Source: Bacillota bacterium (GTDB taxonomy: Bacteria > Bacillota > Bacilli > Alicyclobacillales > SLC66). Taken from it: a stretch of DNA of 52,212 bases. The stretch spans positions 1 through 52,212 of the forward strand of contig JAKACV010000016.1 of the NCBI GenBank assembly GCA_021821085.1. The letters run 5' to 3'. The notes under the pieces were generated by a model, which ran no database searches, was not told the DNA's origin, and saw only the letters and a program-made list of their open reading frames with translations. Positions 937-52,212 of this stretch are shown here, piece after piece. Numbering within the stretch: the stretch's first letter is position 1; each line of letters begins with the position of its first letter. A program made the translations under genes and the position numbers.

Positions 937-994
937 AAGCTAGTCAATAGAAATTGAATGCCGAGAGGCTATCTTAGTTAAGGGAGGGGATTTT

Positions 995-2062: not shown

Positions 2063-2087
2063 TCCGTACAGGGGGTTTTGGTGGACT

Positions 2088-2645
2088 ATGATTTCAAGCA
2101 ACGATTTTCGGCCAGGTGTTACGATTGAGTATGATGGAGCGATATGGCGTGTTATTGAATTTATGCACGTGAAACCAGGTAAAGGTGCAGCCTTTGTTCG
2201 CACAAAGCTAAAAAATATTCGCACGGGTGCAGTTAAGGAAATGACGTTTCGCGCGGGTGAAAAAGTTTCTCGCGCTCGTATTGAAAATCGACAAATGCAG
2301 TATTTGTACGCAGACGGTGACAATTATACATTTATGGATACTGAGTCATTCGAACAGCTGGCGATTGGGCATGATCAATTAGAATATGAACTTAATTTTT
2401 TGAAGGAAAATATGAATTGCGTTGTGATGTTATATGAGGATGCAGCAATTGGGGTTGATTTGCCTAATACGGTTGAACTCGAAGTGATTGAAACAGAACC
2501 AGGTATTCGTGGGGACACGGCTACCGGCGGTAGTAAGCCGGCGAAGCTGGAAACAGGGTATATGGTTCAGGTTCCCTTTTTTGTAAATATAGGTGATCGA
2601 TTGATCATCGATACACGTTCTGGACTTTATGTTTCGCGTGCGTAA
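2088..2645 (+). CDS. efp: Elongation factor P
   Basis: EF-P binds between the P and E sites of ribosomes stalled at polyproline and speeds peptide-bond formation. The 185-residue length and three beta-barrel layout are normal. The loop KPGKGAAFV places a lysine at position 32, the residue that is modified in Bacillus EF-P. The C-terminal OB domain ends with the standard [16 protein letters not shown]. The gene follows the Xaa-Pro peptidase in the same direction and is followed by a very stable hairpin at 2672-2724. Confidence 0.97.
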
Positions 2646-2671
2646 GAAGACTCGAACGTGCACACAGACGC

Positions 2672-2724
2672 ATAGCAAAGCGGCTCCCCAAACTGTAATG
2701 AGACGTGGGGAGCCGCTTTGCTAT
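2672..2724. terminator. Bidirectional hairpin after efp
   Basis: Perfect 18-bp inverted repeat (2672-2689 and 2707-2724), rich in GC in the middle (GCGGCTCCCC), with a 17-base loop. It lies between the convergent ends of efp and a 42-codon minus-strand reading frame. The T-tract is weak (GACTTT), so termination is likely but not certain. Confidence 0.7.
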
Positions 2725-2747
2725 GACTTTGCACTGAACGCATCGAA

Positions 2748-2876
2748 TTATGCGCTGGCGGAACTCCCTGCTTGCCGAGGCCGTTTTAACCAACTGAAAA
2801 CGAGCACCATGCAAAGTAGAAAAATCACAAGAAATACGACAATCCATCTGGTCACTAATGCGAATGTATCCGACAT
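2748..2876 (-). CDS. Small single-pass membrane protein (42 aa)
   Basis: A short frame opposite to efp begins MSDTFALVTRWIVV and ends PRQAGSSASA. It has one clear transmembrane segment (about residues 8-29, very rich in V, F, L and I), followed by a basic KRPR stop-transfer patch and a small-residue tail, predicting an N-out/C-in topology. GGAAGGGG lies 6 bases upstream of the ATG, a good ribosome site. Its stop codon is 24 bp from the shared hairpin. I do not recognise the family; the position between efp and spoIIIA is where Bacillus has yqhV, a small membrane protein, but length and strand differ. Real-gene status rests on the ribosome site and composition. Confidence 0.5.
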   Translation of the reverse strand: MSDTFALVTRWIVVFLVIFLLCMVLVFSWLKRPRQAGSSASA

Positions 2877-2997
2877 GGTCAACCCCTTCCATGAGGACAC
2901 GAAATCAACCTCTCTCTATGTTTATCCACGTCCTTATGATTCGGTGCAAAGCATTTGCTCCGATCACATTCCTCCTTATCTACCAATCACATTTGGT

Positions 2998-3026
2998 ATA
3001 AATGCAGATCTCGTCCCATATACATT
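2998..3026 (+). promoter_or_regulatory. Sigma-E-like promoter of spoIIIA
   Basis: GTATAAA (2998-3004), 14 bases, then TATACATT (3019-3026). The mother-cell sigma-E consensus is about GMATATT, 14-15 bases, CATACANT, so the -10 matches 7 of 8. The position, 48 bp before the spoIIIAA start, and the known sigma-E control of this operon support it. Confidence 0.5.
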
Positions 3027-3073
3027 GGACTAGTTAAACAAATAGCACGTAAGTATTGCGAGGTGAACGGGAT

Positions 3074-4045
3074 ATGCCCGATCCAACCGCTTCCCGTGAT
3101 GTAGCTGGCGTCGCAAAGCTGTTGCCGCAAGTGTTGCGAAGTATAATCGAAGAACTTGAACCGAATGCCGTAAGGCATATTGAGGAAATTCGATTGCGTG
3201 CTTTGCGTCCACTTGAGCTAGTCGGTATTCGGCACTATCAGAATCCGATTGTTACAGTTGAACATTTGCGCCATGTGATGTCAGCTGTCACTGGATCTTC
3301 TTACTACGCAGTGGAATCGCAACTCCGTTACGGATATCTTACGCTGCCAGGTGGTCATCGTGTGGGCATCGCAGGGAGAGCAGTGGTAGATGAACACGAT
3401 CACATGGTCACCATTCGGGACATTGCTTCCGTGAATATCCGGATTGCTCGCCAGATTGTGCAATCTGCAAGTGGTGTGGCGCCATTTCTCATGGATGAGT
3501 GGGAACAGTTGCACTCTACTCTGATCGTGGGGCCTCCAATGTGCGGTAAAACAACTATTCTTCGCGATGTGGCACGTCTCATTGGAAACGGTGAATTGCA
3601 TCCGAGGCTTGGTTCACGAGCTGTTTCGATCGTCGATGAGCGCTCTGAAATTGCCGCCTGTTACCAAGGAATCCCGCAGTTTGATGTAGGGAGATCAACT
3701 GATGTACTGGATGGTTGTCCCAAAGTACAGGGAATGTACTTGATGTTGCGAGCTATGGCTCCGCATGTTGTGATGACAGATGAAATCGGCAGTGTAGCAG
3801 ATGTCAAAGCAGTTTTAGACATTGCTCGAGCCGGAATCAGTTTTATTGGTACAGTCCACGCCAAATCTTTAGAAGATTTAAGACAGCGCCCGGCGCTTCG
3901 AACTCTTCTTACGCATGGTGCGATCGATCGTTTTGTGATTTTAAGTCGTCGCTGTGGTCCGGGCACTGTTGAACATGTCTACGATCGACATTTCCGTGAG
4001 GTGAAACGAAGTGGTCCCGAGTCTGTGGCAAATCGCAGGAGCTAG
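3074..4045 (+). CDS. spoIIIAA: Stage III sporulation protein AA
   Basis: Mother-cell ATPase of the SpoIIIA-SpoIIQ channel, the feeding tube that keeps the engulfed forespore active and supports sigma-G. It is related to secretion ATPases. Of 323 residues, the P-loop GPPMCGKTT is near residue 153, and the Walker-B-like VVMTDEIG follows about 80 residues later. ATG at 3074 is preferred over an upstream TTG because AGGTG sits 8 bases before it and the length then matches the family (about 307-330). The last 35 bp overlap spoIIIAB, which implies translational coupling. Confidence 0.93.
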   Translation: MPDPTASRDVAGVAKLLPQVLRSIIEELEPNAVRHIEEIRLRALRPLELVGIRHYQNPIVTVEHLRHVMSAVTGSSYYAVESQLRYGYLTLPGGHRVGIAGRAVVDEHDHMVTIRDIASVNIRIARQIVQSASGVAPFLMDEWEQLHSTLIVGPPMCGKTTILRDVARLIGNGELHPRLGSRAVSIVDERSEIAACYQGIPQFDVGRSTDVLDGCPKVQGMYLMLRAMAPHVVMTDEIGSVADVKAVLDIARAGISFIGTVHAKSLEDLRQRPALRTLLTHGAIDRFVILSRRCGPGTVEHVYDRHFREVKRSGPESVANRRS

Positions 4046-4544
4046 TATCGTCATGGTGGGGAGTTCGCTGTACGGACGGGAGTTTTCCTTGCGATTTCGG
4101 GCGCGTCCCCAAGAGTTGCGGCAACTTGCTTCCATGTTGCGTTCACTCCGAGCGGATATTAGCTATCAACGGTTACCACTGCAAGAGGCATTTTTGCATG
4201 CGAGTCGACAGGGACAATCTGGAGCAGCGTTAAGCGACCTATTTCTTACCGCGTCAAACGAGTTAGCTCATCCTGGCAGTACAGCGCTTGACGCTTGGCA
4301 TGTAGCGTTACAGATACATGCACCGCGCATGCATTTAGTGACAGAAGATCGTCAAATTTTGGAGAGTTTAGGACATTCCATTGGAGTGTCTGGTGTAGCG
4401 GAGCAAGCTGCACATCTGGATGCAGCGTTGGCTCAACTGGTGGATCGTGAAAAGGATGCAATGGAGGAAAGAGCGCGTTATGAACGTGTGTATCAAACAT
4501 TAGGAGTCTTAGCTGGTGTGCTAATCGTCGTATTGCTTATTTAG
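4011..4544 (+). CDS. spoIIIAB: Stage III sporulation protein AB
   Basis: Membrane component that works with SpoIIIAA and resembles type II secretion GspF. The 177 residues start with a hydrophobic stretch (about 4-16), then a soluble helical region (RARPQELRQLASMLRSL is typical), and end with a C-terminal membrane helix (LGVLAGVLIVVLLI). The GTG start lies inside spoIIIAA; later starts would remove the N-terminal anchor. It is followed after 18 bp by spoIIIAC with GAGGAGG before that gene. Confidence 0.92.
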   Translation: MVPSLWQIAGASIVMVGSSLYGREFSLRFRARPQELRQLASMLRSLRADISYQRLPLQEAFLHASRQGQSGAALSDLFLTASNELAHPGSTALDAWHVALQIHAPRMHLVTEDRQILESLGHSIGVSGVAEQAAHLDAALAQLVDREKDAMEERARYERVYQTLGVLAGVLIVVLLI

Positions 4545-5173: not shown

Positions 5174-6448
5174 ATGATGATAGCAGTGAAACGACGTATT
5201 GCGCGGAGTGGATTGCATAAGTTAACGATCACCTTTTTGATGTTAATCTTCTTGCAAGCTGTCCCACACGCCTATGCAAGTGGATCTATTCCAGCTGTCT
5301 CGGGGCTTCCTCCTCCAGTTGTAACGACGACTTCTGGCAATACATCTCCTTTGACACCACTTCAAAGTGCGACTAAACAGTACCAATCCGTGTCGCAAAA
5401 TACGATAGAACAGGCTTGGAACCAACTTGATACACAGTACGGTGGATATATTCCGGCTACATCTGAAGGCCAATTTGTTCCTTCGTTTTTTCCGGGAAAT
5501 GTTCCCTTTCATTATCGTCACCTGCTGCAAGGATTGGTGCGGTATCTGTTGAATGCACTGTGGGGAAATGTGAGATTGCTCGGTATTATCATGATTTTAA
5601 CTGTGTTAGCAGCTATTCTTGAAACAGTTCAATCTGCATTTGCATCACAAATGGTTGCCAAAGTGGCATTTTGGGTGACTCAGCTTGTGTTGATTGTTTT
5701 GGCAGTTTCATCTTTTCACGATGCGACACAGTTTGCGAATGGGGCAATTGACACAATGACCGCATTTATGTATGGGTCTTTGCCTGTTGTCCTGGCTCTG
5801 ATTGCAGCTTCAGGTGGACTAACGTCGGCCGCTGTCTTCCACCCATTAATCGTTTTTATTGTAAATGCGATGGGGTTGATTGTACACAACTGGGTTTTGC
5901 CGTTAATTTTCTTTTCTGCAGTACTCACGATTGCCAGTACTTTATCGGATCGCTATAAGGTTACTGCGTTAGCTGGGTTTATTAAGACTGTAGCATTGGC
6001 TGTCCTTGGACTTGGGATGAGTGCGTTTCTTGGCATTATGTCCGTACAAGGGTCGCTTGCTAGCATCTCTGATGGGGTGGCATTACGCAGCGTAAAGTAC
6101 GTGGCGAGTAATCTTGTTCCAGTAATCGGGAAGGCGTTGTCGGACGCTTCAGAGTCTATTGCAGGTGCCTCCCTGATCGTTAAAAATGCTACTGGGATGG
6201 CAAGTGCAGTACTCTTATTGCTCATTTGCGCATTTCCCGCCTTGAAAATCCTTGCTCTATCAATCGTCTATAACGTTTCAGCTGCACTGTTGCAACCGTT
6301 AGGAGATTCTCCTGTGATCTCAACACTATCTACGATCGGAAAGAGTCTTGGGCTTGTCTTTGCAGCTGTCGCTGCGGTTGGAATGATGTTCTTTTTTGCA
6401 ATTGTCATTGCGGTAGCAGCCACGAACTTGACGGCCTTTGTGAGGTGA
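5174..6448 (+). CDS. spoIIIAE: Stage III sporulation protein AE
   Basis: Large polytopic membrane subunit of the feeding-tube channel. An N-terminal signal-like helix (about residues 13-30, ending HAYASG) is followed by a low-complexity, Pro/Thr-rich extracytoplasmic stretch and then about seven to eight hydrophobic segments from residue 120 on. The ATG at 5174 is chosen because AGGAGGGG is 4-11 bases upstream; an earlier ATG at 5159 overlaps the spoIIIAD stop but has no ribosome site of its own. 424 residues is normal for the family. Confidence 0.93.
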   Translation: MMIAVKRRIARSGLHKLTITFLMLIFLQAVPHAYASGSIPAVSGLPPPVVTTTSGNTSPLTPLQSATKQYQSVSQNTIEQAWNQLDTQYGGYIPATSEGQFVPSFFPGNVPFHYRHLLQGLVRYLLNALWGNVRLLGIIMILTVLAAILETVQSAFASQMVAKVAFWVTQLVLIVLAVSSFHDATQFANGAIDTMTAFMYGSLPVVLALIAASGGLTSAAVFHPLIVFIVNAMGLIVHNWVLPLIFFSAVLTIASTLSDRYKVTALAGFIKTVALAVLGLGMSAFLGIMSVQGSLASISDGVALRSVKYVASNLVPVIGKALSDASESIAGASLIVKNATGMASAVLLLLICAFPALKILALSIVYNVSAALLQPLGDSPVISTLSTIGKSLGLVFAAVAAVGMMFFFAIVIAVAATNLTAFVR

Positions 6449-6452
6449 CATC

Positions 6453-6971
6453 ATGATTGGTGCTTTATCTGACTGGTTGCGCCATCTCGTGATGATTATC
6501 TTGCTCGCCGCATTCTTAGATCTCATTTTACCGACGACGTCTATGCAAAAGTACGTGCGGACAGTACTTGGGTTAATCGTCATGCTGACTATGTTGAATC
6601 CTATCACGGCGCTGATTCAAACTCACTTTAACCTAAATGCGCTTGAGACAAGGATTACTGGACCTCTATTTGGATCAAGTATGCCTTGGCAAACATCTTC
6701 CAATGCGAATAAGAGTTCAGGAAATGTAACATTTCAAACAGATCTGTCAGCCACGTTGCGGGAAGAGGTGCAATCTGGTCTCGGAGTTTCATTGCAGTCT
6801 GTGCAAGTAGGGACCCGATCTAGTGCCGATGGCACTCCAGTCGTTACAGGAGTGACTGCAAGTCTAGGTATTCTCCCGTCTTCAGAAAAGCGTTCAGTGG
6901 TCATACAGGAGGTGCAAGCCCAAATTGCAGAATCACTTGGGTTGCCGTTGTCCACCGTACAGGTCAATTAG
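6453..6971 (+). CDS. spoIIIAF: Stage III sporulation protein AF
   Basis: Membrane-anchored SpoIIIA subunit. Two N-terminal helices (about 8-26 and 32-50, with KYVRTVLGLIVMLTMLNPI, the family hallmark) precede a soluble C-terminal domain with a ring-building-motif-like fold in homologues. 172 residues. It begins 4 bp after spoIIIAE and ends directly against spoIIIAG. Confidence 0.9.
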   Translation: MIGALSDWLRHLVMIILLAAFLDLILPTTSMQKYVRTVLGLIVMLTMLNPITALIQTHFNLNALETRITGPLFGSSMPWQTSSNANKSSGNVTFQTDLSATLREEVQSGLGVSLQSVQVGTRSSADGTPVVTGVTASLGILPSSEKRSVVIQEVQAQIAESLGLPLSTVQVN

Positions 6972-7616
6972 ATGAGGGGAACGACGAGAGGGGGGAAATG
7001 CGGTGGGGTAGGGGCGGCGATTAAAAAATTATTGGCTAACAAGTGGTTGTTAGCGGTGACTGCGATTGGCATCTTGTTACTGGTTTTTGGAGCCGCAGGA
7101 GGAAACGGGTCAAAGCAGACACCAAACGGTAAAGGTGCGATGCCAGTTACAACCTCGTCGTCCAATGGACTTACAGGCACAACTCAGGCGTCAAACTCAG
7201 ATCCTGCACTACAAACTGCAGTGACGTACGAGAAATATTACGATCATGAACTCGAGCAGATGATCAATCAGATCAATGGAATAAGCGATGCGCTGGTCAT
7301 GGTAACGGTTGATTCCACACCATCTGAAAAATATGGGAGCAATACCTCCACGTCAACGCAATCGTCAGTTCAAACGGGATCTGGGAGTCAGACGAAGACG
7401 ACGACGCAGCAGAGTCAAACGCAAATGGTTACAGTTCAAGGGTCAAATGGGAGTCAGGTACCGATTGTCGTTCAGCAACAATTACCCCATATTTCAGGGG
7501 TGCTTGTTGTTGCAAAATCAAATGACGTGGTGCAAATGCAGTCGGAAATTGTAAGTGCAGTTCAGGATGCACTTGGGATACCAAGTTATGAAATTACAGT
7601 TCTGCCTCGTAAGTAG
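6972..7616 (+). CDS. spoIIIAG: Stage III sporulation protein AG
   Basis: Single-pass mother-cell membrane protein; homologues form a large ring in the intermembrane space that is the body of the SpoIIIA channel. A basic N-terminus is followed by one transmembrane helix (about residues 26-43, WLLAVTAIGILLLVFGAAG), a Ser/Thr/Gln-rich stretch, and the C-terminal ring-building domain ending in LGIPSYEITVLPRK. The middle (about 115-150) is unusually rich in S, T and Q, as in other SpoIIIAG proteins. No strong ribosome site precedes the ATG; translation is probably coupled to spoIIIAF. Confidence 0.92.
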   Translation: MRGTTRGGKCGGVGAAIKKLLANKWLLAVTAIGILLLVFGAAGGNGSKQTPNGKGAMPVTTSSSNGLTGTTQASNSDPALQTAVTYEKYYDHELEQMINQINGISDALVMVTVDSTPSEKYGSNTSTSTQSSVQTGSGSQTKTTTQQSQTQMVTVQGSNGSQVPIVVQQQLPHISGVLVVAKSNDVVQMQSEIVSAVQDALGIPSYEITVLPRK

Positions 7617-7667
7617 ATAGTTAAGGTACATGTGATACTACACAGCGTGAGAAGGGAAGCGAAACAT

Positions 7668-8249
7668 ATGGTGAAAAGACAAACGGTGTGGCTCTCTACA
7701 ATGATGGTATTATCCCTCATGTTGATTGGCTACTACACGTTAGGTGCGCCAGCAACTCCTAGTACACAAGACGTTACGACGCATGGTGGAAGCACGTCCG
7801 TTATCCCAACGAATGCAAATTCGGCATCGTCAGGGAAAACGACGACAAAAGCAGCTTCCAGTAGCCAATCTGCAACAAAGACAGCGGCGACAACGGTAGC
7901 AAGTGACTGGTTCGCTCAAACGTCGCTCGATCAAATGCAGTCTGAATCAAAGTTGATACAAACTCTACAAAATGAGATTAGTGATCCACATGTGAGTCAG
8001 GCTGCTGCATCAAGTGCTTATCAGCAATTGACGACGATTCAAACGCAACAGGCAGAGGCTAATAAAATTCATGATCTTTTAACAAGTCAGTTTCCAGATT
8101 CGCTGGTCATCTTTAATCCTCAAGGACAAGTTCATGTATGGGTAGAAGCAAGTTCCTTGATTCCAACAGCAGCTGTCAAAGTCATTGATCTTGTTTCACA
8201 GACACTTGGCATCCAATCCAATCAAGTGATTGTTAGTGCTCACGCCTAA
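7668..8249 (+). CDS. spoIIIAH: Stage III sporulation protein AH
   Basis: Mother-cell membrane protein whose extracellular YscJ/FliF-like domain binds forespore SpoIIQ and links the two halves of the channel. The start at 7668 gives MVKRQTVWLSTMMVLSL, the normal family N-terminus, with GAAGGGAAG upstream; an earlier GTG would add 12 residues. One transmembrane helix (about 7-24) is followed by a long Ser/Thr/Ala-rich linker and the ring domain (about 95-193). Last gene of the operon; 193 residues. Confidence 0.92.
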   Translation: MVKRQTVWLSTMMVLSLMLIGYYTLGAPATPSTQDVTTHGGSTSVIPTNANSASSGKTTTKAASSSQSATKTAATTVASDWFAQTSLDQMQSESKLIQTLQNEISDPHVSQAAASSAYQQLTTIQTQQAEANKIHDLLTSQFPDSLVIFNPQGQVHVWVEASSLIPTAAVKVIDLVSQTLGIQSNQVIVSAHA

Positions 8250-41400: not shown

Positions 41401-41417
41401 GAGTGAGGTTGGAGAAA

Positions 41418-44135
41418 GTGTCGAAAAACAAGGACCCGTTTGGTGCAAAAGCTGTACTTTCAGCCAATGGAAAAGAGTATCAGTATTATCGATTGAATCG
41501 TTTGGAAGAACTACATGTAGGGGAAATTTCTCGACTTCCGTTTTCGATGAAAATCTTGCTGGAAAACGTATTGCGGAAATTAGATGACTATATTATTACG
41601 CAAGAACATGTGAAACAAATTGCAAACTGGAACGCCGAAGCTCCTGACCAATCCCATGAAATTCCGTTTATGCCTGCGCGCATTCTGTTGCAGGATTTTA
41701 CGGGTGTCCCTGTTGTGGTTGATTTGGCGGCACTGCGTCAGTCTGTGCATCGTTTGGGTGGCGATCCAAAGAAAATTAATCCGCTTGTTCCAGTTGATCT
41801 TGTCATTGATCATTCCGTGCAAGTTGACAGTTTTGGTCAAAATAACTCATTAGATGTGAACACAGATTATGAGTTTGAACGCAATGAGGAGCGTTACAAG
41901 TTTTTGCACTGGGCTACCAAGGCATTTGAAAACTTCCGCGCTGTACCACCGTCTACAGGCATCGTTCATCAAGTGAATCTAGAATATTTAGCGTCTGTTG
42001 TGCAGTCTCAAAAAGGTGACGAGGGATGGGTAGCATTTCCTGATTCACTTGTAGGAACTGACTCACATACGACGATGATCAATGGACTTGGCGTTCTTGG
42101 TTGGGGAGTCGGCGGCATCGAAGCAGAGGCTGGAATGCTTGGTCAACCGCTGTATTTTGTAACGCCAAAAGTTATTGGATTTAAGTTAGTTGGCCGTTTG
42201 CCAGAAGGATCTACAGCGACCGATCTAGCTCTCACGGTGACGAATATATTGCGTAAAAAGGGTGTTGTTGGTCAGTTTGTCGAATTTTTCGGTCCTGGGT
42301 TAAGTGCGATGACTCTTGCAGATCGTGCAACGATTGCCAACATGTCTCCTGAATACGGGGCAACAATGGGCTTTTTCCCTGTCGATGCTGAAACCTTGAA
42401 GTATCTCCGTACAACTGGCCGTGATGAAGAGCAGATTGCCCTTGTCGAAGCATACACAAAGGCACAAGGTATGTTTCGAACAGATGACATGCCTGATCCA
42501 ATTTTCTCAGATGTGGTTACCCTCGATTTGTCCACTGTCGTTCCATCATTAGCAGGTCCACGCCGCCCACAAGATAAAGTTGAACTTACAAAAATGAAGC
42601 AACAGTTCAATGAAATTGCACGTTTGCCAGTGAAACAGGGCGGGTTTGCTTTAACTGAGGAACAGATTCAAAAATTAGTGAAGGTCCGTCAAGCCAATGG
42701 GCAGGAATCAGAACTAACAACAGGTTCACTTGTCATTGCTGCGATAACAAGTTGTACGAATACTTCTAATCCATCCGTCATGTTGGCGGCAGGATTGCTT
42801 GCAAAGAAGGCCGTTGAAAAGGGGCTTACTCGTAGCCCTCATGTAAAGACAAGCCTTGGTCCAGGTTCGCGTGTGGTGACGAGTTATCTAGAGAAATCTG
42901 GAACCTTACCGTATCTTGAAAAACTTGGTTATCAGGTTGTCGGATATGGCTGTACTACATGTATAGGAAATAGCGGTCCGCTCATTCCGGAAGTGGAGGC
43001 AGCTGTACGTGAGAATGAATTGACCGTTGCTGCTGTTTTAAGCGGTAATCGAAACTTTGAAGGTCGAATTCATCCTGCAGTCAAAGCCAATTACTTAGCG
43101 TCGCCTCCGCTTGTTGTGGCCTATGCGATTGCTGGAACGGTTGATATTGATTTGACAAATGATCCGCTTGGTCATGACGCTTCTGGAAATCCAGTCTATC
43201 TGCGCGATATCTGGCCGTCTTCACAAGAGGTGGATCAAGCGATTGCACAGTTTGTCACGCCGGACATGTTTAAAGAGAAATACCATGATGTACTGCATTC
43301 GAATGAACGGTGGAATGCACTCCCAACTCCGGAAGGCGAGTTATTTGATTGGGATGTTGAATCTACTTATATTCAGGAACCTCCGTTCTTCGTTGGACTT
43401 GACACGAATGTAGCACCGATTGCTCCGATTCATGATGCACGTGTTCTGGCTCTTCTTGGAGATTCGGTCACAACAGATCACATTTCTCCAGCTGGGGCTA
43501 TTAATCCAAAGAGTCCAGCAGGTCTTTTTTTGCAATCAAATCATGTGGACGTGCGCGATTTCAATTCGTATGGGTCACGTCGTGGCAATCATGAAGTGAT
43601 GATGCGTGGAACATTTGCTAATGTTCGTATTCGCAATGAAGTAGCGCCTGGAACGGAAGGCGGCTATTCCACGTACCTGCCGACCAGTGAATTGATGTCA
43701 ATTTATGATACAGCCATGCGGTACATGCAAGATGGAGATGCCATGGTTGTCATTGCTGGGAAAGAATACGGAACAGGTAGTTCCCGCGACTGGGCAGCGA
43801 AAGGAACTTATTTACTAGGGGTAAAAGCGGTCATTGCAGAAAGTTTTGAGCGCATTCACCGTAGTAACTTGGTTGGTATGGGCGTTTTACCGCTTCAATT
43901 CGATCAAGGCGTTAGTTGGCGCTCACTTGATTTAACTGGGTATGAGAGGTTTCATTTTGAAGGAATCGACGATTTGTTGACACCACATCAACGAATCAAC
44001 GTTAAAGCAACGAAACCGGATGGTTCAACGCGATCGTTTGATGTCACGGCGCGAATCGACAGCCCTATTGAGGTCGATTACTATCGCAATGGCGGAATTC
44101 TACAAATGGTTCTTCGCAATTTGATGAAGGCGTAA
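41418..44135 (+). CDS. acnA: Aconitate hydratase
   Basis: 4Fe-4S enzyme interconverting citrate and isocitrate; in Bacillus the same protein also binds RNA when iron is low. 905 residues. Cluster cysteines: Cys446 in [14 protein letters not shown], Cys512 and Cys515 in [34 protein letters not shown] is the C-terminal swivel-domain signature. GTG at 41418 gives [14 protein letters not shown], the usual beginning; a GTG five codons earlier is possible. Followed by a GC-rich hairpin. Confidence 0.96.
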
Positions 44136-44256
44136 TCCAACATAAAATCGAAAGGGAAGGGGAGACCCTTCCCTTTGGTGTACAAGAAGTCATGAAGCAT
44201 AATCTACCATAGAGGCTTTGCAATCCTATCTCCGGATCGAAGAAATCAATTTTCAT
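44065..44256 (-). other. Short frame after the AhpD-like gene, possibly decayed
   Basis: GGAGGGGG is 7 bases before an ATG at 44256; the product begins MKIDFFDPEIGLQSLYGRL and has two Cys (LCFMTSCTPKGR). The N-terminus resembles the MKxxxFDP opening of ArsD-like proteins but lacks the following CC pair. The frame then runs through the acnA hairpin and 71 bp of antisense to acnA, so its tail is not credible. It may be the truncated second gene of the operon. Confidence 0.3.
44151..44176. terminator. Hairpin after acnA
   Basis: Perfect 11-bp stem AAAGGGAAGGG/CCCTTCCCTTT with a GAGA tetraloop; weak T-run. Confidence 0.7.
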
Positions 44257-44282
44257 GAGTTCATCCCCCTCCGTTTTGTTGA

Positions 44283-44555
44283 TTAGCAGCAGTCCCCAGA
44301 ACCACAACCACACGAGGAACTTTGGCTGATCACATTCAGTTTCGCAGCCTGCTGTTCAAAGAAGATCTCCGCATACTCATCCGACTTCATCGTCGCTGTG
44401 AGTTTGACGACACGGACGAGTTGCAGTACTTCTTGGAGATCGTCGTTACTCGCACCCAATTCTCTAGCCTTAGGCACATGGTGTTCTATGCAAGACCGGC
44501 ATCCAGCCGCCAAAGCCGCAGCAACTTGAATTAATTCCTTCGTGAGTTCATTCAT
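44283..44555 (-). CDS. Carboxymuconolactone decarboxylase/AhpD-like protein with Cys-rich tail
   Basis: 90 residues of the CMD/AhpD fold with the redox motif CxxCxxxH (Cys19, Cys22, His26 in AAGCRSCIEHHV). It ends in CGCGSGDCC, five cysteines in nine residues, which suggests a metal- or metalloid-binding tail. Small proteins like this lie in arsenic-related or other metal operons in several bacteria; the reaction is unknown. The start ATG is 44555. It is divergent from nothing upstream but lies behind a strong palindrome (44575-44611). Confidence 0.82.
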   Translation of the reverse strand: MNELTKELIQVAAALAAGCRSCIEHHVPKARELGASNDDLQEVLQLVRVVKLTATMKSDEYAEIFFEQQAAKLNVISQSSSCGCGSGDCC

Positions 44556-44574
44556 ACTGCATCACCATCTATTT

Positions 44575-44611
44575 ATCTTTATATAATTATTTACTTATAT
44601 TATATAAAGAT
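44575..44611 (-). promoter_or_regulatory. 13-bp inverted repeat, candidate operator
   Basis: ATCTTTATATAAT and ATTATATAAAGAT, perfect, with an 11-base spacer, 20 bp before the AhpD-like start. AT-rich palindromes of this type are bound by ArsR/SmtB regulators; they also contain -10-like TATAAT. No regulator gene is next to it. Confidence 0.55.
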
Positions 44612-44719
44612 CGACTGGGTTTTGTAACTATATAGGTAAAATATTTTATTTACACTGCATCGATTATAGCTAACTGACGTAAACGATTGGGATGTGTGGT
44701 ATTTAGATCATTGTAACGC

Positions 44720-44850
44720 CCATGATCGAACAGTCTCTAGGCAAACGCCTTAAACACGAGTAAGAAAAGCGCAGTTGGACTTTAGAAAAAAACAGATAGT
44801 TAATCCATGATGGTGACGTTCTTGAAAATGAGCGAAATCATTATTTTGTT
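44720..44850 (+). pseudogene. Possible XRE-type regulator relic
   Basis: Reads MIEQSLGKRLKHE, stop, EKRSWTLEK, stop, then LIHDGDVLENERNH: the order resembles an XRE helix-turn-helix, with two in-frame stops. Short and weak. Confidence 0.3.
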
Positions 44851-45022
44851 CACTGACTGCAAAAAAATGTGTGCTATCCATTAGAATCGCATTCGAAAAT
44901 GCAAACAGTGATTTCGTATATCGTGTATTCTTTTAGATAGCGTGGTCAATAACCACGTTGGCGTATATATACAAATAACGAATTCACAAGATGCCATTTC
45001 ATGCATCCGGTCACTCGCAAAC

Positions 45023-45192
45023 CTTTTAGAGGTTGTTCAAAAAGGGTCGAGAACTCTGCGGCGCAGGGCTTCGGCTTGTGCTGGACATGCGTGCTCATGT
45101 ACCACCTATCGTACACTCCGCGCGCATGTCCAGACTTCACCAACCCCCTGCTTGCATCTTACCTCAACCCTTTTTGAACAGGTTCTTTTAGA
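45023..45192. repeat. MITE-like element, copy 1, with target duplications
   Basis: The 154-bp element (45031-45184) is flanked by the 8-bp repeat CTTTTAGA (45023-45030 and 45185-45192). Its ends carry TGTTCAAAAAGGGT in inverted orientation. Inside, CTGGACATGCG and CGCATGTCCAG form a perfect 11-bp inverted repeat. It is too short to code for anything. The second copy is at 51706-51859, about 96 percent the same by eye. Confidence 0.85.
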
Positions 45193-45312
45193 TATATGGG
45201 ATTTAAACGATCAGGTACGGCTATCTTAAGAATCTAAAATATACGCTGGATTTAATTAGCTAATTTTCAGATGAAAAAATAGGGTGATTCACTTGAAACG
45301 TTGAATTGGAAG

Positions 45313-45695
45313 AAAGGCAGATCTACACACTGCACAACAGATCGCACTAACTTATAATGGGATAAGCAGCAGCATCATCATCACCGTTGACAACGGCATA
45401 GCGGCACTGGAGGCGGTAGAACAAGCTCACGCTCTTGGAATTGACCTCAATGACATTGACCATCACCATAGGGTGTGTGTGCTGCCAAACGCCTATGCAC
45501 TGGTCCATCCTGTACTTAGAGACTAGCCATTCCCTGAATTGTGCAGAGGACCCACTCGAAGCGCGACGTATTGAGATCGAAGTGAACGGACTGAAAAAAG
45601 AGACAGACCATTCAGGAACGCATTCATCAGTCAGCGGTAGAAGAGAACCAATCGATTTTGGAATATGGTTCAGATACAGATGCGGTTGGTTGAGG
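45313..45695 (+). pseudogene. recJ: recJ fragment
   Basis: In one frame: ADLHTAQQIALTYNG, SSIIITVDNGIAALEAVEQA, HALGIDLNDIDHHH and VLPNAYALVHPVLRD, then stop. DIDHHH is the DHH motif (normally TDHH) of RecJ. A later frame reads PFPELCRG and further on RQTIQERIHQSAVEEN, matching the sequence after GAGV in RecJ. So 130-140 codons of a RecJ exonuclease remain, with an internal deletion and frameshifts; both ends of the gene are absent. The intact recJ must be elsewhere. Confidence 0.75.
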
Positions 45696-45732
45696 TAAAG
45701 TAAAAATAGGCGAAGAATAGAGGTGTTTTTAT

Positions 45733-46251
45733 TTGGTTATATGGAACGGGAAACCATTGTCATACTACGATCTTAGTTTTCACGACAAAATAGCGATGAG
45801 TCTATTGAGATCTGGATTTAGGAAAGCAGATTTCGATAACAATAATATGCTCGGTGCATGGACAGGATCACAAATGCATGTGTTTTTTCGCACAAAGTCG
45901 ATTGCAATAGCTCCACATCATCGGATCATAGAGCATACTGGCTTTCCTACTGTTTTTGACGATGAGTATGAGGCTGTGCTTGAAAAGTGGTATGCGTTTA
46001 TTGCTCGGGAAAACGAAGCTAGTGAGGATCGAACACAACATTGGACGTATATATCCGATATATATTTGAGTGTCGCGCCATGTGATGAACGACTTTTCGA
46101 AGGGGCGCATCGCGAGTTTGGTAAGCTTCCTGCATTAACAGAGCCAACTGATGCCTATGAATATACGGAAAATTTGATCCATGATGCGCAAAGGTACATC
46201 GCGTTTATGAGGAGAAAGTTTATGAAATTGGTTTTGGGGAATTCGACATAA
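45733..46251 (+). CDS. Unknown 172-residue protein
   Basis: Begins MVIWNGKPLSYYDLSFHDKI and is soluble, with many aromatic and charged residues (SFHDKIAMSLLRSGFRKADF, TGSQMHVFFRTKSIAIA, WTYISDIYLSVAPC). TTG start with AGAGGTG 7-8 bases before it. Base use is like the core rather than the GC-rich dab genes. I do not recognise a family. Its neighbours are all relics or the dab island, so context gives no hint. Confidence 0.55.
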   Translation: MVIWNGKPLSYYDLSFHDKIAMSLLRSGFRKADFDNNNMLGAWTGSQMHVFFRTKSIAIAPHHRIIEHTGFPTVFDDEYEAVLEKWYAFIARENEASEDRTQHWTYISDIYLSVAPCDERLFEGAHREFGKLPALTEPTDAYEYTENLIHDAQRYIAFMRRKFMKLVLGNST

Positions 46252-46260
46252 GGATGATTC

Positions 46261-46452
46261 ATGCGTGGAATTGAATACACTCATTTTCCCAGATGTCTAA
46301 AGAAAGCAGATGTAACGGTGAGCAAGCAAACACGTAGAGAGAAAAGATGCGAAGAATGTTTGCTTCGGGGGCTCCTAAAAAACCATCGCGATACTAATAT
46401 GCTTCTTCCTGCTCCTGCGGCCATGTTGCAATTGAAACTGAACAACTCATAG
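46261..46452 (+). CDS. Unknown 63-residue protein
   Basis: MRGIEYTHFPRCLKKADVTV, then a basic middle and CEECLLRGLL. AAGGATG lies 7 bases before the ATG and the gene starts 9 bp after the previous one, suggesting an operon. Function unknown; could be noise. Confidence 0.3.
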   Translation: MRGIEYTHFPRCLKKADVTVSKQTRREKRCEECLLRGLLKNHRDTNMLLPAPAAMLQLKLNNS

Positions 46453-46569
46453 CTCAAGCATAATGAAATACTTCCATTATAGGTGTTTCATTAGATATTT
46501 TACTAATAATTACAGAAAATCTTTTTTATATCTCCCTACATTCTACTAACCCAAATTTTGAATTTTGGT

Positions 46570-46690
46570 CTCATTAAGTCGCGTCCCGACAGGGGCGTGA
46601 TTTTTATTCGGGCACTACAACCTTCGTTCCACCATGCGATGCTCACGGCGTAGAGGATTCGTCATGCGCAGTTTCTTGTACATTTCCTGT
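46570..46690 (-). mobile_element. 3' fragment of the window-start transposase element
   Basis: Read on the minus strand, this matches 790-895: the coding text MTNPLRREHRMVERRL corresponds to MTDPLRREHWIVDRRL, and the bases after the stop (TAGTGCCCGAA) also match. An in-frame stop a little upstream shows decay. Nothing resembling the N-terminal part is nearby. Confidence 0.75.
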
Positions 46691-47128
46691 ACTCAATCGA
46701 AGCCCTTCAGTGATAGCACGAACCGCAAAATATCCTTGACAAATACAGTCGACATCCTCCCCCATCAAGTTTCAAAGTAATGGTAATCCGTCGAGAACCA
46801 TCGTAGGGGCGCTCTATGTAAATCTCGTCATCCGCCTCAGTACTACTTCGTTTGCTGAATGCGGCATGTGCTTGTAATATAGGCTTGTCCCTTGCCGCCA
46901 TTGCCAAGCATTCATTCCTGCTCCAGGTTGAGGCCATATTTTTTGATTCACTCAAGTTGAGTGGTTTGCTTGCTGACTTGTGCGTATAGATAACCTACTT
47001 TCCGCTCCTGCTCTTTGTGTTGTTTCACAGCTTTGCGCTCGAATAAAAACGTTGGATATATTTTCTTAATAAGTATTCTTTTGTTGTCTCGATTGCACAT
47101 GGGGACACCATACTCTGACTGTGGGGGG

Positions 47129-47157
47129 TTGCTTATTCGCAAGCTGTTTCGTATAAT
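47129..47157 (+). promoter_or_regulatory. Sigma-A promoter of the dab operon
   Basis: TTGCTT (47129-47134), exactly 17 bases, TATAAT (47152-47157), about 220 bp before dabB. A second TATAAT is at 47181-47186 without a good -35. The region 46700-47376 otherwise shows no convincing gene. Confidence 0.55.
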
Positions 47158-47376
47158 AAATAACGAATATAAATTCACGATATAATTGTCATGTATTAAG
47201 CGGGAATAACAGTAGGTGATGTTACTACAGGCTATTTGCCAACGGCCTGATCCGAACCTGCTTTATGCTTTGATACCACTGCCACCGGGCACAGTATTGG
47301 CGACTATAAGTCATGAAAGGCGATTTTGGTCACGTGTGTTTGGTCTTCTACATTCTACGATAAGGTGGTTATTGAT

Positions 47377-49038
47377 ATGCAATTCGTTCCAAGTATGATA
47401 ACATCCGAACTCATTCTGATTTTACCTTGGCCACTGTTTGTAGTTGGTCTTGTGGTCGGAATCGGTGCTGACCGCCATGCCCGACTGATGAGGGGATTGA
47501 CAACGGGTGCTACCTGGTTCGCTTTGGTGTGTGCGGTTTTGGCAGCAGTGACATATACATTGGGGATGACACAATCCGCAACCTATCTTTCCGTAAAATT
47601 ACCAGATGGGCTGGGCCTGCTCTCGATCAGCGTCGAAGTCAACGATCTCACCGTGCTCATGCTGTTGCTGGTAGCCTTCGTTGGCATGATCGTCGCTCGT
47701 TATTCGTACACCTATCTGGATGGCGACACTCATGAAGGACGCTTCCATCGGTGGCTGAGCCTCACGTTAGGGTCATTCTTAACGCTGATTTTCTCTGGTA
47801 ATATATGGATTTTTTTGATCTTTTGGATTGCCACAAGCCTATGTCTGCATGAGTTGTTGGCGTTCTATCACAAGCGCCCCGTCGCGGTGCTTGCTGCCCG
47901 TAAGAAATACCTGCTTCACAGGATTGCGGATGTAAGCCTGTTTGCGGCCTTTGTGCTCATCGCCTGCACACTGCATACGTCGCAATTCGCCAGTATCGCA
48001 TCCGTGTTCGCTACGACTCACGGACCTCTGCCAGAAACCTTGCAGATCGCGAGCGGTCTCATCGTCTTGAGTGCGGTCCTAAAGAGTGCGCAATTCCCAT
48101 TCCACGGCTGGCTTATTCAAGTCATGGAAGCACCGACACCGGTGTCGGCGTTGTTACATGCCGGCATCATATACACTGGCGCGTTTTTAATTCTGCGTAC
48201 GATTCCAATCATGTCACGGGTGGGGTGGACCCAAGATGCGCTGATCCTGGTGGGACTGGTTTCCATAGCTGCAGCTTCTCTTATGATGATGACAGCGACC
48301 AATATTAAGGGGTCACTTGCCTATTCAACCTGCGCGCAGATGGGTTTCATGCTCATGGAATGTGGTCTTGGTCTGTACAGCCTAGTGGTGTTGCATATTG
48401 TCTCGCACTCAGTCTATAAGGCTCATGCTTTCCTATCATCGGGCAGCGTTGTTGATCATTTCCGGGTGCCTGTGTTACCGGCTGTATCTCGCGCCGCGAC
48501 AGTGTGGAAGGTGATGCAGAGTCTTACAGTTGCGGTGCCGATAGTCATCGGTATAGGAGCCGTTTTTGGGGTGCCCTTATCCCAACAGCCCGCGCTGATC
48601 GTCATGGGGGTGATTTTGACGATTGCCATCTCTCAGTTGCTGCTGCAAGCTTTGAATATGGGTGAAATCGGAATAAACAGATTGTTGCCGGCGATGATCG
48701 GCCTAAGTGCACTGGTTTCCATGGCCTATTTCGGCTTCGATACGCTGTTTACAGAGCTGCTTGGTGCGAGTCTGGACACCGCCCGAATAGCAGCTGGTGG
48801 TGTTCAGGACGGGCTCTTGGGGCTGATCATCGCAGTGTTCGTGGGCCTCCTGCTTGTACAGCAGATGTTGCCACGGGTTCCGCATAACCCATTTTGGCAG
48901 GCGACCTATGTGCATCTCTACAATGGACTCTACATTGATACGTTCTTTACCCGGATGGTCCGGAGTTTTGGGCCAGTCGGCATCGCCGAACCATTATGGA
49001 GAGCAAGCGAAGGCCAATCACGGGAGGTGGAATCATGA
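47377..49038 (+). CDS. dabB: DabB, membrane subunit of the inorganic carbon pump
   Basis: NuoL/MrpA-like proton-conducting membrane protein. In Halothiobacillus DabB forms a complex with DabA that accumulates inorganic carbon as bicarbonate, probably driven by cation flux. About 553 residues with roughly 13-14 hydrophobic helices; LKSAQFPFHGWLIQVMEAPT then VSALLHAGIIYTGAFLI is the complex-I signature, and HIVSHSVYKAHAFLSSGSVV the conserved Lys/His helix. ATG at 47377 follows AAGGTGG by 7-9 bases. Overlaps dabA by 4 bp (ATGA). Base content is visibly higher than in the core genes. Confidence 0.88.
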   Translation: MQFVPSMITSELILILPWPLFVVGLVVGIGADRHARLMRGLTTGATWFALVCAVLAAVTYTLGMTQSATYLSVKLPDGLGLLSISVEVNDLTVLMLLLVAFVGMIVARYSYTYLDGDTHEGRFHRWLSLTLGSFLTLIFSGNIWIFLIFWIATSLCLHELLAFYHKRPVAVLAARKKYLLHRIADVSLFAAFVLIACTLHTSQFASIASVFATTHGPLPETLQIASGLIVLSAVLKSAQFPFHGWLIQVMEAPTPVSALLHAGIIYTGAFLILRTIPIMSRVGWTQDALILVGLVSIAAASLMMMTATNIKGSLAYSTCAQMGFMLMECGLGLYSLVVLHIVSHSVYKAHAFLSSGSVVDHFRVPVLPAVSRAATVWKVMQSLTVAVPIVIGIGAVFGVPLSQQPALIVMGVILTIAISQLLLQALNMGEIGINRLLPAMIGLSALVSMAYFGFDTLFTELLGASLDTARIAAGGVQDGLLGLIIAVFVGLLLVQQMLPRVPHNPFWQATYVHLYNGLYIDTFFTRMVRSFGPVGIAEPLWRASEGQSREVES

Positions 49039-51509
49039 ACGTAATGGATGCATATGGATCGCTCATGGACAAGGTGGATGTGGCCTGCCAGCGTATTGCG
49101 CCTTTGTGGCCGATCAAAAATTTCGTGGCGGTCAACCCGTATTTCGGTCTGAGTGATCAGTCGTTTTGGCAGGTACATAAGACACTTGAGCGTATCACCG
49201 GTGTGGGACTGAGTATGCCCCGTGCCTACTATCACGAGCAAATTGCGAGCGGCCGAATTACGCGCACCGATTTGGCGGCGGCGCTGCAGGAGTTAGGGAG
49301 CTTATGGGACGTTCCAACTTTTGAGCAGGTGCTTGCCCGTGAGACCTCGTCGTCGATGGCGCCACTCACTCTCGTCACGGACGTGCTCGGAGGACTCGAC
49401 GATCAGGACTGGTCGAATTTCGTCGTTGAGCGAATCAGCCAATACTGTGCCGCTTATTTTGACGAGGGTCAAGCGCTGTGGTCGATGCCTTGGCGCGATA
49501 AGTCGCTCTATAGTGGCTGGCTCGAATTTAATCACATCGATAAAAGTCCATGGATGATGGGCGTGAGAGGCATGGGTGAGGCGACAACTGAATTGCCGGA
49601 TACCGCACAGGGCACCATTGTTTGGGCGTTGCGAGTACTTTCTGTACCACCGGAGGCGGTCGATGATTATCTGCATGCGACGTTATTGAGCGTCGGCGGT
49701 TGGGCGGGATGGACACGCTACTGGCGCTGGCAGGCGGAACTCGAGAAAGGTCACGACGACTCGATACGCGATCTACTCGCCATACGTCTTGCATGGGACG
49801 CCTTGCTCTATAAGTTGCGCTATAGCGAAGCGCTTGAGACGTATTGGCGTCAAGCCGTGGCGGCAATCACTAAGCCTGTGGGTCATGCCAATGTCGCGCT
49901 CCAGGTCGATGCGGTGTTACAAACGGCCTTCGAGAGAGGCTATCAAAGACAACTGGCGACATCCTTGATTGTTGCCGACGGTGTGGCGCAACGGAACGGT
50001 CGACCTGACTTGCAGGCGGTTTTTTGTATCGACGTGCGTTCGGAGGTTTACCGACGTGCACTAGAAACGGTTGCGCCAAGGGTTCAGACTCTCGGTTTCG
50101 CTGGGTTTTTCGGTATTATGATGGAATATCTCCCCTTTGGCGCCGTCGAAGCCAAGAGACATCTTCCCATATTGTTCAATCCTTCCTATCGCATATGTGA
50201 GCGTTTAGACAGTGCGGATGCGCAGGAGGCGGACAAACTGATCGTTCGGCGCCACACACGAATGCGCGTGGCCAACGCCTGGAAAACCTTTAAAATTTCA
50301 GCGTCATCGTGTTTCTCGTTCGTCGAGGCGGTCGGTTTATTGTCGGCCTCGAAACTCGTAAGCGACAGCATGGGATGGACGCGCCCGGTTTCGCAACCCG
50401 ATCGCAAGGGTCTACATGCTGGGGTACACGGCCGCTTGGGTCCAGGGCTGACCTCCTGGGCAGCCGGGTCAGGAGCATGCGCGGATGGCGATTCGACGGG
50501 TATTCCTGAGGCTGACCGCTTTGCGGCGGCTGAATTCGTCTTGCGAAATATGGGGTTGATCCGAGACTTTGCGCGGTTGGTGTTGTTTGTCGGGCATGGT
50601 AGTACCACAGTCAATAACCCGCAGGCAACAGGCCTTGATTGTGGCGCCTGCGCCGGTCAGTCTGGCGAGGCCAGTGCCCGTATCGCAGTCGCGTTGCTAA
50701 ATGATCCGTTGACTCGTAGCGGTCTCGCGCAAAAGGGTATTGAAATCCCTGCAGACACCTATTTTATAGCTTGTCTGCATGATACCACCACCGATGAGGT
50801 GCAGTTGTTCAACATGGATGATGTGCCATCTTCGCATACTGCAGACGTGGCCCAATTGCGTCAGTGGTTAGCAGCAGCAGGACAGATGACCCGCATGGAG
50901 CGTGCGACTTTTTTAGGGATTGGAGATTTACCCATGCCAACGATCCACGCGGATATGCGGAGACGCACTCGCGACTGGGCGCAGTTGCGCCCAGAATGGG
51001 CGTTGGCTGGTAACGCCGCCTTTATAGCAGCTCCGCGTACCCGCACGGCGCACTGCGATCTGGCTGGCCGCGCGTTCTTGCATGAGTACAATTGGCACAA
51101 CGACGCCAATTTTGGCACGCTACAACTGATTATGACCGCACCCATGATCGTGGCCAACTGGATCAATATGCAGTACTACGGATCAGTGGTCGATAATCGT
51201 CGGTTTGGCAGCGGCAACAAGGTCCTGCATAACGTGGTGGGCGGTTCGATCGGCGTGCTTGAAGGTAACGGCGGCGACTTGAGAGTGGGTTTGGCGTTAC
51301 AGTCTCTGCACGACGGCGCAAAGTGGATGCACGAGCCGATGCGTCTCAATGTCATCATCGAGGCGCCGCAGCGTGCCATCGATGACGTAATCGCCCGCCA
51401 TGACATGGTGCGGGAACTGATCGAAAATGCATGGATCCACCTTTTCCAGATCGACGAGGATGGGAACATGAATCGTCGCGGAACCGACAAGCAGTGGCGT
51501 CGCTACTAA
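49035..51509 (+). CDS. dabA: DabA (DUF2309), catalytic-type subunit of the inorganic carbon pump
   Basis: Peripheral zinc protein with beta-carbonic-anhydrase-like metal site; thought to hydrate CO2 directionally when bound to DabB. 824 residues. Metal ligands as in Halothiobacillus DabA (C351, D353, H524, C539): here Cys331 and Asp333 in FCIDVRSEVYRR, His521 in VGHGSTTVNNP, Cys536 in GLDCGACAGQSG, with the same internal spacing (2 and 15). ATG at 49035 has GGGAGGTGG 5 bases upstream. Rich in GC (41 of 60 at 50641-50700), unlike the core (25 of 60 at 9061-9120). Confidence 0.93.
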   Translation: MNVMDAYGSLMDKVDVACQRIAPLWPIKNFVAVNPYFGLSDQSFWQVHKTLERITGVGLSMPRAYYHEQIASGRITRTDLAAALQELGSLWDVPTFEQVLARETSSSMAPLTLVTDVLGGLDDQDWSNFVVERISQYCAAYFDEGQALWSMPWRDKSLYSGWLEFNHIDKSPWMMGVRGMGEATTELPDTAQGTIVWALRVLSVPPEAVDDYLHATLLSVGGWAGWTRYWRWQAELEKGHDDSIRDLLAIRLAWDALLYKLRYSEALETYWRQAVAAITKPVGHANVALQVDAVLQTAFERGYQRQLATSLIVADGVAQRNGRPDLQAVFCIDVRSEVYRRALETVAPRVQTLGFAGFFGIMMEYLPFGAVEAKRHLPILFNPSYRICERLDSADAQEADKLIVRRHTRMRVANAWKTFKISASSCFSFVEAVGLLSASKLVSDSMGWTRPVSQPDRKGLHAGVHGRLGPGLTSWAAGSGACADGDSTGIPEADRFAAAEFVLRNMGLIRDFARLVLFVGHGSTTVNNPQATGLDCGACAGQSGEASARIAVALLNDPLTRSGLAQKGIEIPADTYFIACLHDTTTDEVQLFNMDDVPSSHTADVAQLRQWLAAAGQMTRMERATFLGIGDLPMPTIHADMRRRTRDWAQLRPEWALAGNAAFIAAPRTRTAHCDLAGRAFLHEYNWHNDANFGTLQLIMTAPMIVANWINMQYYGSVVDNRRFGSGNKVLHNVVGGSIGVLEGNGGDLRVGLALQSLHDGAKWMHEPMRLNVIIEAPQRAIDDVIARHDMVRELIENAWIHLFQIDEDGNMNRRGTDKQWRRY

Positions 51510-51527
51510 ACGACCGGATTGATCATG

Positions 51528-51568
51528 TGAAAGCTCTAAGCGCTGTCCATGTGGCATTGGAGCTTTCA
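51528..51568 (+). terminator. Hairpin after dabA
   Basis: TGAAAGCTC and GAGCTTTCA, 9-bp perfect stem, loop about 23 bases, followed by TCTTATACC. Confidence 0.55.
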
Positions 51569-51705
51569 TCTTATACCGCGCAGATTGTAGTTTTACTCAC
51601 GTAACATGTTAAGGGACGGATGAGTTGGGGGTCGAAGCCTTCGTTTCTGTTTTTACGACAGTAGCGAACTCTCGTTAATTTTCGGACGATTTTGTTTTTA
51701 TAAGA

Positions 51706-51859
51706 GGTTGTTCAAAAAGGGTCGAGAACTCTGCGTCGCAGGGCTTCGGCTTGTGCTGGACATGCGTGCTCATGTACCACCTATCGTACACTCCGCGCGC
51801 ATGTCCAGACTTCACGAAACCTCTGCTTGCATCTTACCTCACCCCTTTTTGAACAGGCT
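51706..51859. repeat. MITE-like element, copy 2
   Basis: Same 154-bp element as 45031-45184 in the same orientation, about six differences by eye, mostly in the right third. Flanking bases TTATAAGA and CTATAACA agree in 6 of 8, so its target duplication is worn or absent. Confidence 0.85.
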
Positions 51860-51985
51860 CTATAACATTTTCTCCGAGTGAAGCTGTATCGATATGGCGC
51901 CACTAGAGTGAGTTAACAAGGCAATAAAGAGATTATATGAGTTTTACATAGAGATATAAATGTACAATCATCTTGATTAGGTCAG

Positions 51986-52138
51986 GGAACCTGGGTATTC
52001 CGGAGCCATACTCGGATGCCCTCCTAGTTCCGGTGTTTTTCAAGAATGATGTGGCTCTTCTGTATTTTGGGTGATCGATTATGTGATAGAACTTGCCTAC
52101 TAGGAGTCCGTCCGATGGATTATCGGGGCGGGACTCCT
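51986..52138 (+). other. Possible structured leader RNA with terminator-like hairpin
   Basis: GGAAC (51986-51990) and GTTCC (52027-52031) close a stem around GGGTATTCCG/CGGATGCCC. At 52102-52138 AGGAGTCC and GGACTCCT enclose CCGAT/ATCGG, followed by TTCCATCC. It could be a leader or short RNA; it resembles no riboswitch I know. The rest of 51860-52212 has no gene. Confidence 0.25.
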
Positions 52139-52212
52139 TTCCATCCTGTTTGTTCCAATTTCTAGTCTTTGTTCTGTTTATTCTAGGCTTTCAATATTTT
52201 TTTGCATAATTA

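Follow-up and report, generated by a model that had tools for sequence, protein, structure and literature searches.

The dabB-dabA gene pair of the window (the whole stretch of 52,212 nucleotides that was analysed) is very probably a horizontally acquired pair from an acidophile DAB lineage that crosses phyla; its products would convert CO2 to bicarbonate, and the repeats on either side of it would be incidental. The protein family is known, its horizontal gain is well supported and the repeats are incidental; the wider association of the lineage with acidophiles, and its match to a published operon named och, are the most interesting part. DAB was reportedly described in a 2019 paper. The relevant features are:

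47127 to 47242, plus strand: dab upstream region, conserved by blastn matches upstream of dabB in other loci
47377 to 49038, plus strand: dabB, a NuoL/Mrp-like membrane subunit of 553 aa (PF00361, E 1.3e-38)
49035 to 51509, plus strand: dabA, a beta-carbonic-anhydrase-like zinc subunit of 824 aa (PF10070, E 2.4e-274)

The two genes are intact and adjacent, overlapping by 4 bases (49035-49038), and carry the PF00361 and PF10070 domains by which a DabAB pair is recognized. The sole solved relative of DabA that was found is DabA2 of Halothiobacillus neapolitanus (9rd0_A, E 2.8e-223), and the nearest solved chain to DabB is DabB2 (9rd0_B, E 7.6e-101). Alignment to these chains indicated that the window DabA retains the equivalents of Cys351, Asp353, Arg355, His524, Cys539, Glu444 and Leu658, and that DabB retains those of Lys235, Asp185 and Ile151; for Glu444, Lys235/Asp185 and Ile151 the positions were found by manual counting along the alignments. 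The zinc ligands (Cys351, His524 and Cys539) and the Asp353-Arg355 dyad were conserved in 75 of 75 DabA rows, over which only Glu444 varied among the seven DabA residues (conserved in 73/75), and all seven were conserved in the 33 rows of the acidophile clade described below. Such conservation marks membership of the family, and no special trait of the acidophile lineage. The roles and numbering of the DabA2 and DabB2 residues are those given in PMC13144422, which describes DAB as a one-way CO2 hydrase driven by the proton-motive force.

The upstream region was matched by blastn over its whole length at three other loci (L031, L033 and L034), over 47128-47217 in congener G002 and over 47147-47190 in congener G001. 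It contains a putative promoter, counted by hand, with TATAAT at 47152-47157 lying 17 bases past a weak -35 element (TTGCTT, 47129-47134). The promoter scan does not list this promoter, its -35 element being too weak for the scan.

That the dab genes are richer in GC than their surroundings, as a sequence-only reading of this DNA had noticed, was borne out. The GC content of dabA is 55.8% (GC3 61.1%) and that of dabB 52.0% (GC3 58.1%), against a mean GC of 45.7% (sd 2.1) over 22 plus-strand ORFs of the window and a mean GC3 of 38.5% (sd 3.3, maximum 46.3) over all 24 ORFs of at least 250 aa that lie outside dab in the window; codon use was examined as GC3. The GC3 of dabA is similar in five Bacillota MAGs (59.3-61.0), and is 51.7 in G002 and 40.9 in G001. 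Among the 80 of 157 DabA relatives that were kept, the best named matches were from these Bacillota MAGs (78-82% identity), followed by Proteobacteria MAGs, Nitrospirota, Actinomycetota and Acidithiobacillus. The MAGs presumably came from acid-mine waters, to judge from the sample series and from the company of Acidithiobacillus, Leptospirillum, Ferrovum and Ferrithrix.

The identities of DabA and aconitase were then set side by side. Aconitase was found in four of the five Bacillota MAGs (none in G061), and three MAGs were used in the comparison. Between the window genome (G000) and MAGs G062, G063 and G065, DabA is 82, 82 and 78% identical and aconitase 62, 63 and 63%; between G000 and its congener G001 the order is inverted, at 70% for DabA and 92% for aconitase. 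The pair G000 and G002 (DabA 83%, aconitase 89%) has no inversion, and the argument is therefore carried by G001 and the MAGs only. The MAG aconitases share 62-64% identity with the G000 protein, less than those of the family members examined (74-81%).

In a careful DabA tree of 33 rows, the window, G002 and the five Bacillota MAGs formed a clade (support 100/99) with G001 outside it. In a quick tree of 75 rows, this seven-row clade and G001 fell inside a 33-row clade (SH-aLRT 100) that holds Acidithiobacillus, Leptospirillum, Ferrithrix and MAGs of four phyla, and that is well separated from the DabA that family members G006, G009 and G013 carry. The quick tree used 75 of 110 loci; 18 had been thinned by hand and 17 of 27 DabA loci from the family, order and class were left out. 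The ten rows used from other genomes of the family, order and class formed a separate clade, and the DabA of such genomes is 27-37% identical to that of the window over long stretches and 31-43% over the best stretches. The sequence-only reading had proposed horizontal gain and a DabA tree as a check on it; the window DabA proved to be remote from the DabA of its family and order and to sit within a cross-phylum, acidophile-rich clade.

The alternative is that dab was inherited vertically in the genus and evolved fast, with some other cause behind the GC difference. The acidophile-type DabA is present in each of the three genus members examined, G000 and G002 taken alone lack the inversion, and an AU test that forced the three congeners into one DabA clade did not quite reject that arrangement (p 0.056). 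However, DabA is present in 6 of 18 family genomes and the other three that bear it carry a different type; the G000 DabA is closer to that of MAGs with 62-63% identical aconitase than to that of congener G001; the GC3 of dabA agrees between G000 and those MAGs; and dab occupies three different gene contexts in the three congeners. Vertical descent is therefore quite improbable. Because the DabA trees, the inverted DabA and aconitase identities and GC3 all point the same way, horizontal gain of dabAB, as the sequence-only reading had it, appears well supported, and may have been fairly recent, judging by the foreign GC3. The branch order within the seven-row clade is unsettled, so that donor and direction are not fixed by it, and the donor, direction and route of transfer are ones that we infer: the source was most likely other acid-dwelling bacteria, in a gene pool that would include Bacillota outside this family.

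A plasmid vehicle was considered and rejected. DabA relatives were present on 123 of 72,556 plasmid records, all at less than 60% identity and 110 of them on non-mobilizable plasmids, and none was close. At one of the Bacillota MAG loci (L034), a piece of a Tn3-type transposase and a truncated second piece of dabB (1-903 and 1840-2313) lie upstream of dabBA.

The genomic site was examined through the following features:

41403 to 44135, plus strand: acnA, aconitase (PF00330, E 7.3e-168), 92% and 89% identical in G001 and G002, the last gene collinear with relatives before the break
44283 to 44555, minus strand: carboxymuconolactone decarboxylase-family gene (PF02627, E 2.7e-11), between acnA and the left repeat
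45292 to 45640, plus strand: decayed recJ-like (DHH) remnant, with DHH at E 7.2e-6 on 45380-45523, just under the Pfam cut-off
45733 to 46251, plus strand: 172-aa ORF to which no family could be assigned (no Pfam match to E 1 and no NCBIfam match to E 0.01)
46580 to 46687, minus strand: IS remnant, an 80% match to window 781-888 (minus strand), by eye the 3' end of something transposase-like

The homology of the window to G001 and G002 at acnA stops at 44135-44136. In eight relatives a similar run of genes (by eye) lies downstream of acnA, in some of them past other genes, and comprises a minus-strand MYVYL-type gene, an ABC ATPase and an addB-like gene. The run opens with an MFS-like ORF in G001 and G002, at 159 and 179 bases past acnA. 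In G000 the run, with its MFS (PF00083) and ABC (PF00005) genes, sits on another contig (C29), where homology to G001 resumes at position 8117. The junction between acnA and the MFS gene thus appears to be broken in this genome, via insertion or rearrangement. Stretches of 19 kb holding acnA in G001 and G002 yielded no match to dab or to the repeat (E 1e-3); the dab genes of these two genomes lie elsewhere, in two further gene contexts. The window contig ends 352 bases past the right repeat.

The recJ and IS fragments that the sequence-only reading had placed between the repeats are both there. The DNA of the recJ remnant matches G000 contig C79 and G002 contigs C14 and C26 at 67-77%. The first two of these contigs (loci L239 and L236) carry an intact-looking frame, recJ-like by eye and some 554-562 codons long, which has two places on G002 C14. 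Broken ORFs at window 132-850 resemble a transposase by eye, and it is their end that the IS remnant matches. An 82-aa minus-strand ORF had no Pfam match. The 1.9 kb between the left repeat and dab had no matches in 9 of the 11 genomes compared, and small ones only in G000 and G002.

At 263-3208 the C29 locus (L221) encodes a 981-aa beta-CASP metallo-beta-lactamase nuclease, which resembles both aCPSF1 and a type VII CRISPR nuclease below the cut-off and is adjoined by an RNase_T exonuclease (3389-4096). Of the 981-aa gene, G002 has two copies that are nearly full and several fragments, some of them at contig ends, so that the gene could be mobile and present in multiple copies. The same locus holds a molybdopterin oxidoreductase (formate dehydrogenase-like, 5761-7836) in two frames, 5761-6183 and 6205-7836, which is possibly broken; Pfam was run on the second frame only.

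The pair does lie between two repeats of the same orientation, as had been noticed from the sequence. The direct copies span 45028-45193 and 51703-51868 (166 nt, 95% identical), within which an element was delimited, with its target-site duplication (TSD), as follows:

45029 to 45185, plus strand: left MITE-like copy, 157 bp, TSD TTTTA at 45024-45028 and 45186-45190
51704 to 51860, plus strand: right MITE-like copy, 157 bp, TSD TATAA at 51699-51703 and 51861-51865

Matches to the left end of the repeat, with up to two mismatches, put the number of copies in the 2.85-Mb genome at no fewer than 86 (44 forward and 42 reverse; 0 in a backwards control). TSDs were analysed in 39 distinct copies with both flanks, 36 of which are 157 bp long. 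A 5-bp TSD was exact in 32 of the 39 and a match of 4-6 bp was present in 35, whereas 2000 trials with randomly re-paired flanks gave 4.4 exact matches on average and never more than 11. The other four copies (L010, L014, L019 and L020) have no matching duplication and could mark rearrangements between copies. Related copies, up to 96% identical, are present in family members G014 and G016.

On this anatomy (short, multi-copy, with terminal inverted repeats and a TSD of fixed length) the repeat is called MITE-like here. The likeness to MITEs, which are small non-autonomous elements with inverted repeats, extends to its length of 157 bp, its terminal inverted repeats (19/22 in the consensus), a near full-length hairpin (-81 kcal/mol with RNA parameters), its AT-rich 5-bp TSDs and the lack of a transposase-sized frame in the consensus. 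A point of difference is that two forward frames of 52 codons are open from end to end, although nothing marks them as genes. A known RNA family was tried as an identity for the repeat and rejected, there being no Rfam match on 44100-52212 up to E 0.5.

It might be supposed that the two repeats are the ends or the recombination sites of an island that brought dabAB, either as a composite element or through repeat-mediated gain and loss, which was the suggestion of the sequence-only reading. The shared orientation of the copies, their 95% identity and their enclosure of dab are what this idea has to recommend it. However, the copy number is high, and adjacent pairs on one contig are often close together (13 of 36 within 7 kb, 5 of the 13 in the same orientation); a beta-carbonic anhydrase gene on contig C95 is likewise flanked by two copies. 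Because the repeat is a high-copy family, the bracket around dab is not special. The TSDs of the two window copies differ, so that the outer flanks are unpaired where a composite transposon would share one duplication, and because each copy has its own matching TSD the two inserted independently; neither has a sign of recombination with other copies. The empty site with a single repeat copy that had been envisaged did not materialize, the acnA stretches of G001 and G002 being free of dab and repeat alike. Nor does dab homology run out at the repeats, the DNA common to the G002 dab locus being 47128-51596 with a gap at 47218-47358. An island bounded by these repeats is accordingly most improbable. 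The two copies appear to have played no part in the gain of dab, and the case is a caution that paired repeats around a gene are uninformative until copy number and target duplications have been checked.

In the preferred explanation, of acquired dabAB supplying bicarbonate, DabB would let protons inward and DabA, at a buried beta-carbonic-anhydrase-like zinc site, would hydrate CO2 to bicarbonate in one direction, powered by the strong proton gradient that acid surroundings provide. The host bacterium is probably an acid-dweller, and the steep proton gradient of such a habitat would suit a DAB pump. Bicarbonate concentration by the window dabAB is plausible from its residues and family; its transport activity, acid habitat and bicarbonate use are what we infer.

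RuBisCO was sought as the sign, in the same genome, of an autotrophic CO2-concentrating system. There was no PF00016 match in G000, which is 97.5% complete so that a chance absence is possible, or in G002, and a strong match in G001. PF00016 matches were found in 7 of 18 family genomes and in 5 of 14 controls, including B. subtilis; the weaker ones probably include RuBisCO-like proteins. As no RuBisCO was found in G000, bicarbonate would probably feed other carboxylases, most likely those of heterotrophic metabolism such as acetyl-CoA carboxylase. Because a beta-carbonic anhydrase is also present in G000, DAB is not the sole candidate source of bicarbonate there. PMC8552792 states that MpsAB/DAB and carbonic anhydrase rarely coexist, yet do so in some endospore-formers.

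The neighbours of dab were counted over the 33 loci of the acidophile clade, many of them on short contigs, using single-linkage BLAST clusters of which one or two members each were named by Pfam. An ilvD-type dehydratase is near dab in 8 of the 33 loci (three Bacillota, two Pseudomonadota, two Nitrospirota and one Actinomycetota), and DUF6671 in 7. This company resembles the och operon of Leptospirillum sp. CF-1, which is described in PMC9080137 as encoding a NuoL-like protein, a DUF2309 protein, a hypothetical protein and a dihydroxy-acid dehydratase. DUF2309 is the earlier name of PF10070, DabA, according to PMC13144422, and och would therefore appear to be a DAB operon. A word search of PMC9080137 found no mention of bicarbonate, and the link between och and DAB is absent from the titles and abstract openings that were found on DabA/DabB and DUF2309, a coverage that most subscription journals fall outside.

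PMC9080137 also lists och homologues in other acidophiles, including Acidibacillus sulfuroxidans, with an operon-like arrangement in Leptospirillum only. The unbroken run dabB-dabA-DUF6671-ilvD was found only in two Nitrospirota loci (L045 and L050), which does not conflict with that account. Three Bacillota loci (L031, L032 and L033) have dabB-dabA-ilvD in this order on one strand, and two Pseudomonadota loci (L037 and L107) carry the four genes on a single strand in a span of about 11 kb, interspersed with others; because of these arrangements, the association is wider than that account states. The och operon and the loci L045 and L050 are alike in their types of gene, the och proteins being compared by their descriptions in PMC9080137. 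Unlike och, the window holds dabB-dabA alone, without an adjoining DUF6671 or ilvD.

A small winged-helix gene lies downstream of dabA in G001 and G002 (L166 14795-15091 and L165 17531-17839), and relatives that are 49-53% identical lie upstream of dabB in four Actinomycetota loci (L051, L054, L056 and L084); G000 has no match to it. Its product is a candidate dab regulator. An exclusive tie between this gene and dab was considered and rejected, since G014 and G016 also have the gene but yielded no DabA.

The och match raises the question of whether the acidophile DAB lineage serves mainly in oxidative and chromate stress, as was proposed for och, and not in carbon supply. The DUF2309 gene alone raised the tolerance of E. 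coli to H2O2 and chromate (PMC9080137), PF10070 was formerly DUF2309 (PMC13144422), and the Nitrospirota loci share the och gene order. However, the CXXC "thiol motif" of the och account appears to correspond to DCGAC, the first Cys of which is the zinc ligand Cys539 of DabA2, the residues of the zinc site and Glu444 are conserved in every one of the 33 clade rows, and induction by stress would be compatible with bicarbonate supply. A main role in stress is therefore unlikely, and the supply of bicarbonate is still the preferred function.

A broader proposal can be put forward tentatively. The acidophile DAB lineage may move among Bacillota, Pseudomonadota, Nitrospirota and Actinomycetota as dabB-dabA, often near DUF6671 and ilvD and in some hosts with the winged-helix regulator; it may be one and the same as the och stress operon; and in hosts that lack RuBisCO it may have been re-purposed from carbon fixation to sustaining carboxylation, and with it branched-chain amino-acid synthesis, where bicarbonate is lacking at low pH. 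These observations point to a CO2 pump driven by the proton-motive force that is passing from phylum to phylum in acid environments, in which CO2 is the form of inorganic carbon and the gradient of protons is steep, and that has reached a host in which RuBisCO was not detected. They also tie the DAB family to a published oxidative-stress and chromate operon, and both readings are testable with one set of zinc-site mutants.

The nearest known system is DAB2 of H. neapolitanus (9rd0; PMC13144422). DAB2 and the window DabA are alike in the Cys2His zinc site, the Asp-Arg dyad, the Glu444 finger and Leu658, and DAB2 and the window DabB in Lys235/Asp185 and Ile151. DAB2 serves a chemolithoautotroph, whereas the window host is without a PF00016 match. 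MpsAB of Staphylococcus belongs to the same families as dabAB and supplies inorganic carbon to heterotrophs, as PMC8552792 and PMC6689103 have it; unlike DAB, it is proposed in PMC13144422 to be a sodium/bicarbonate symporter.
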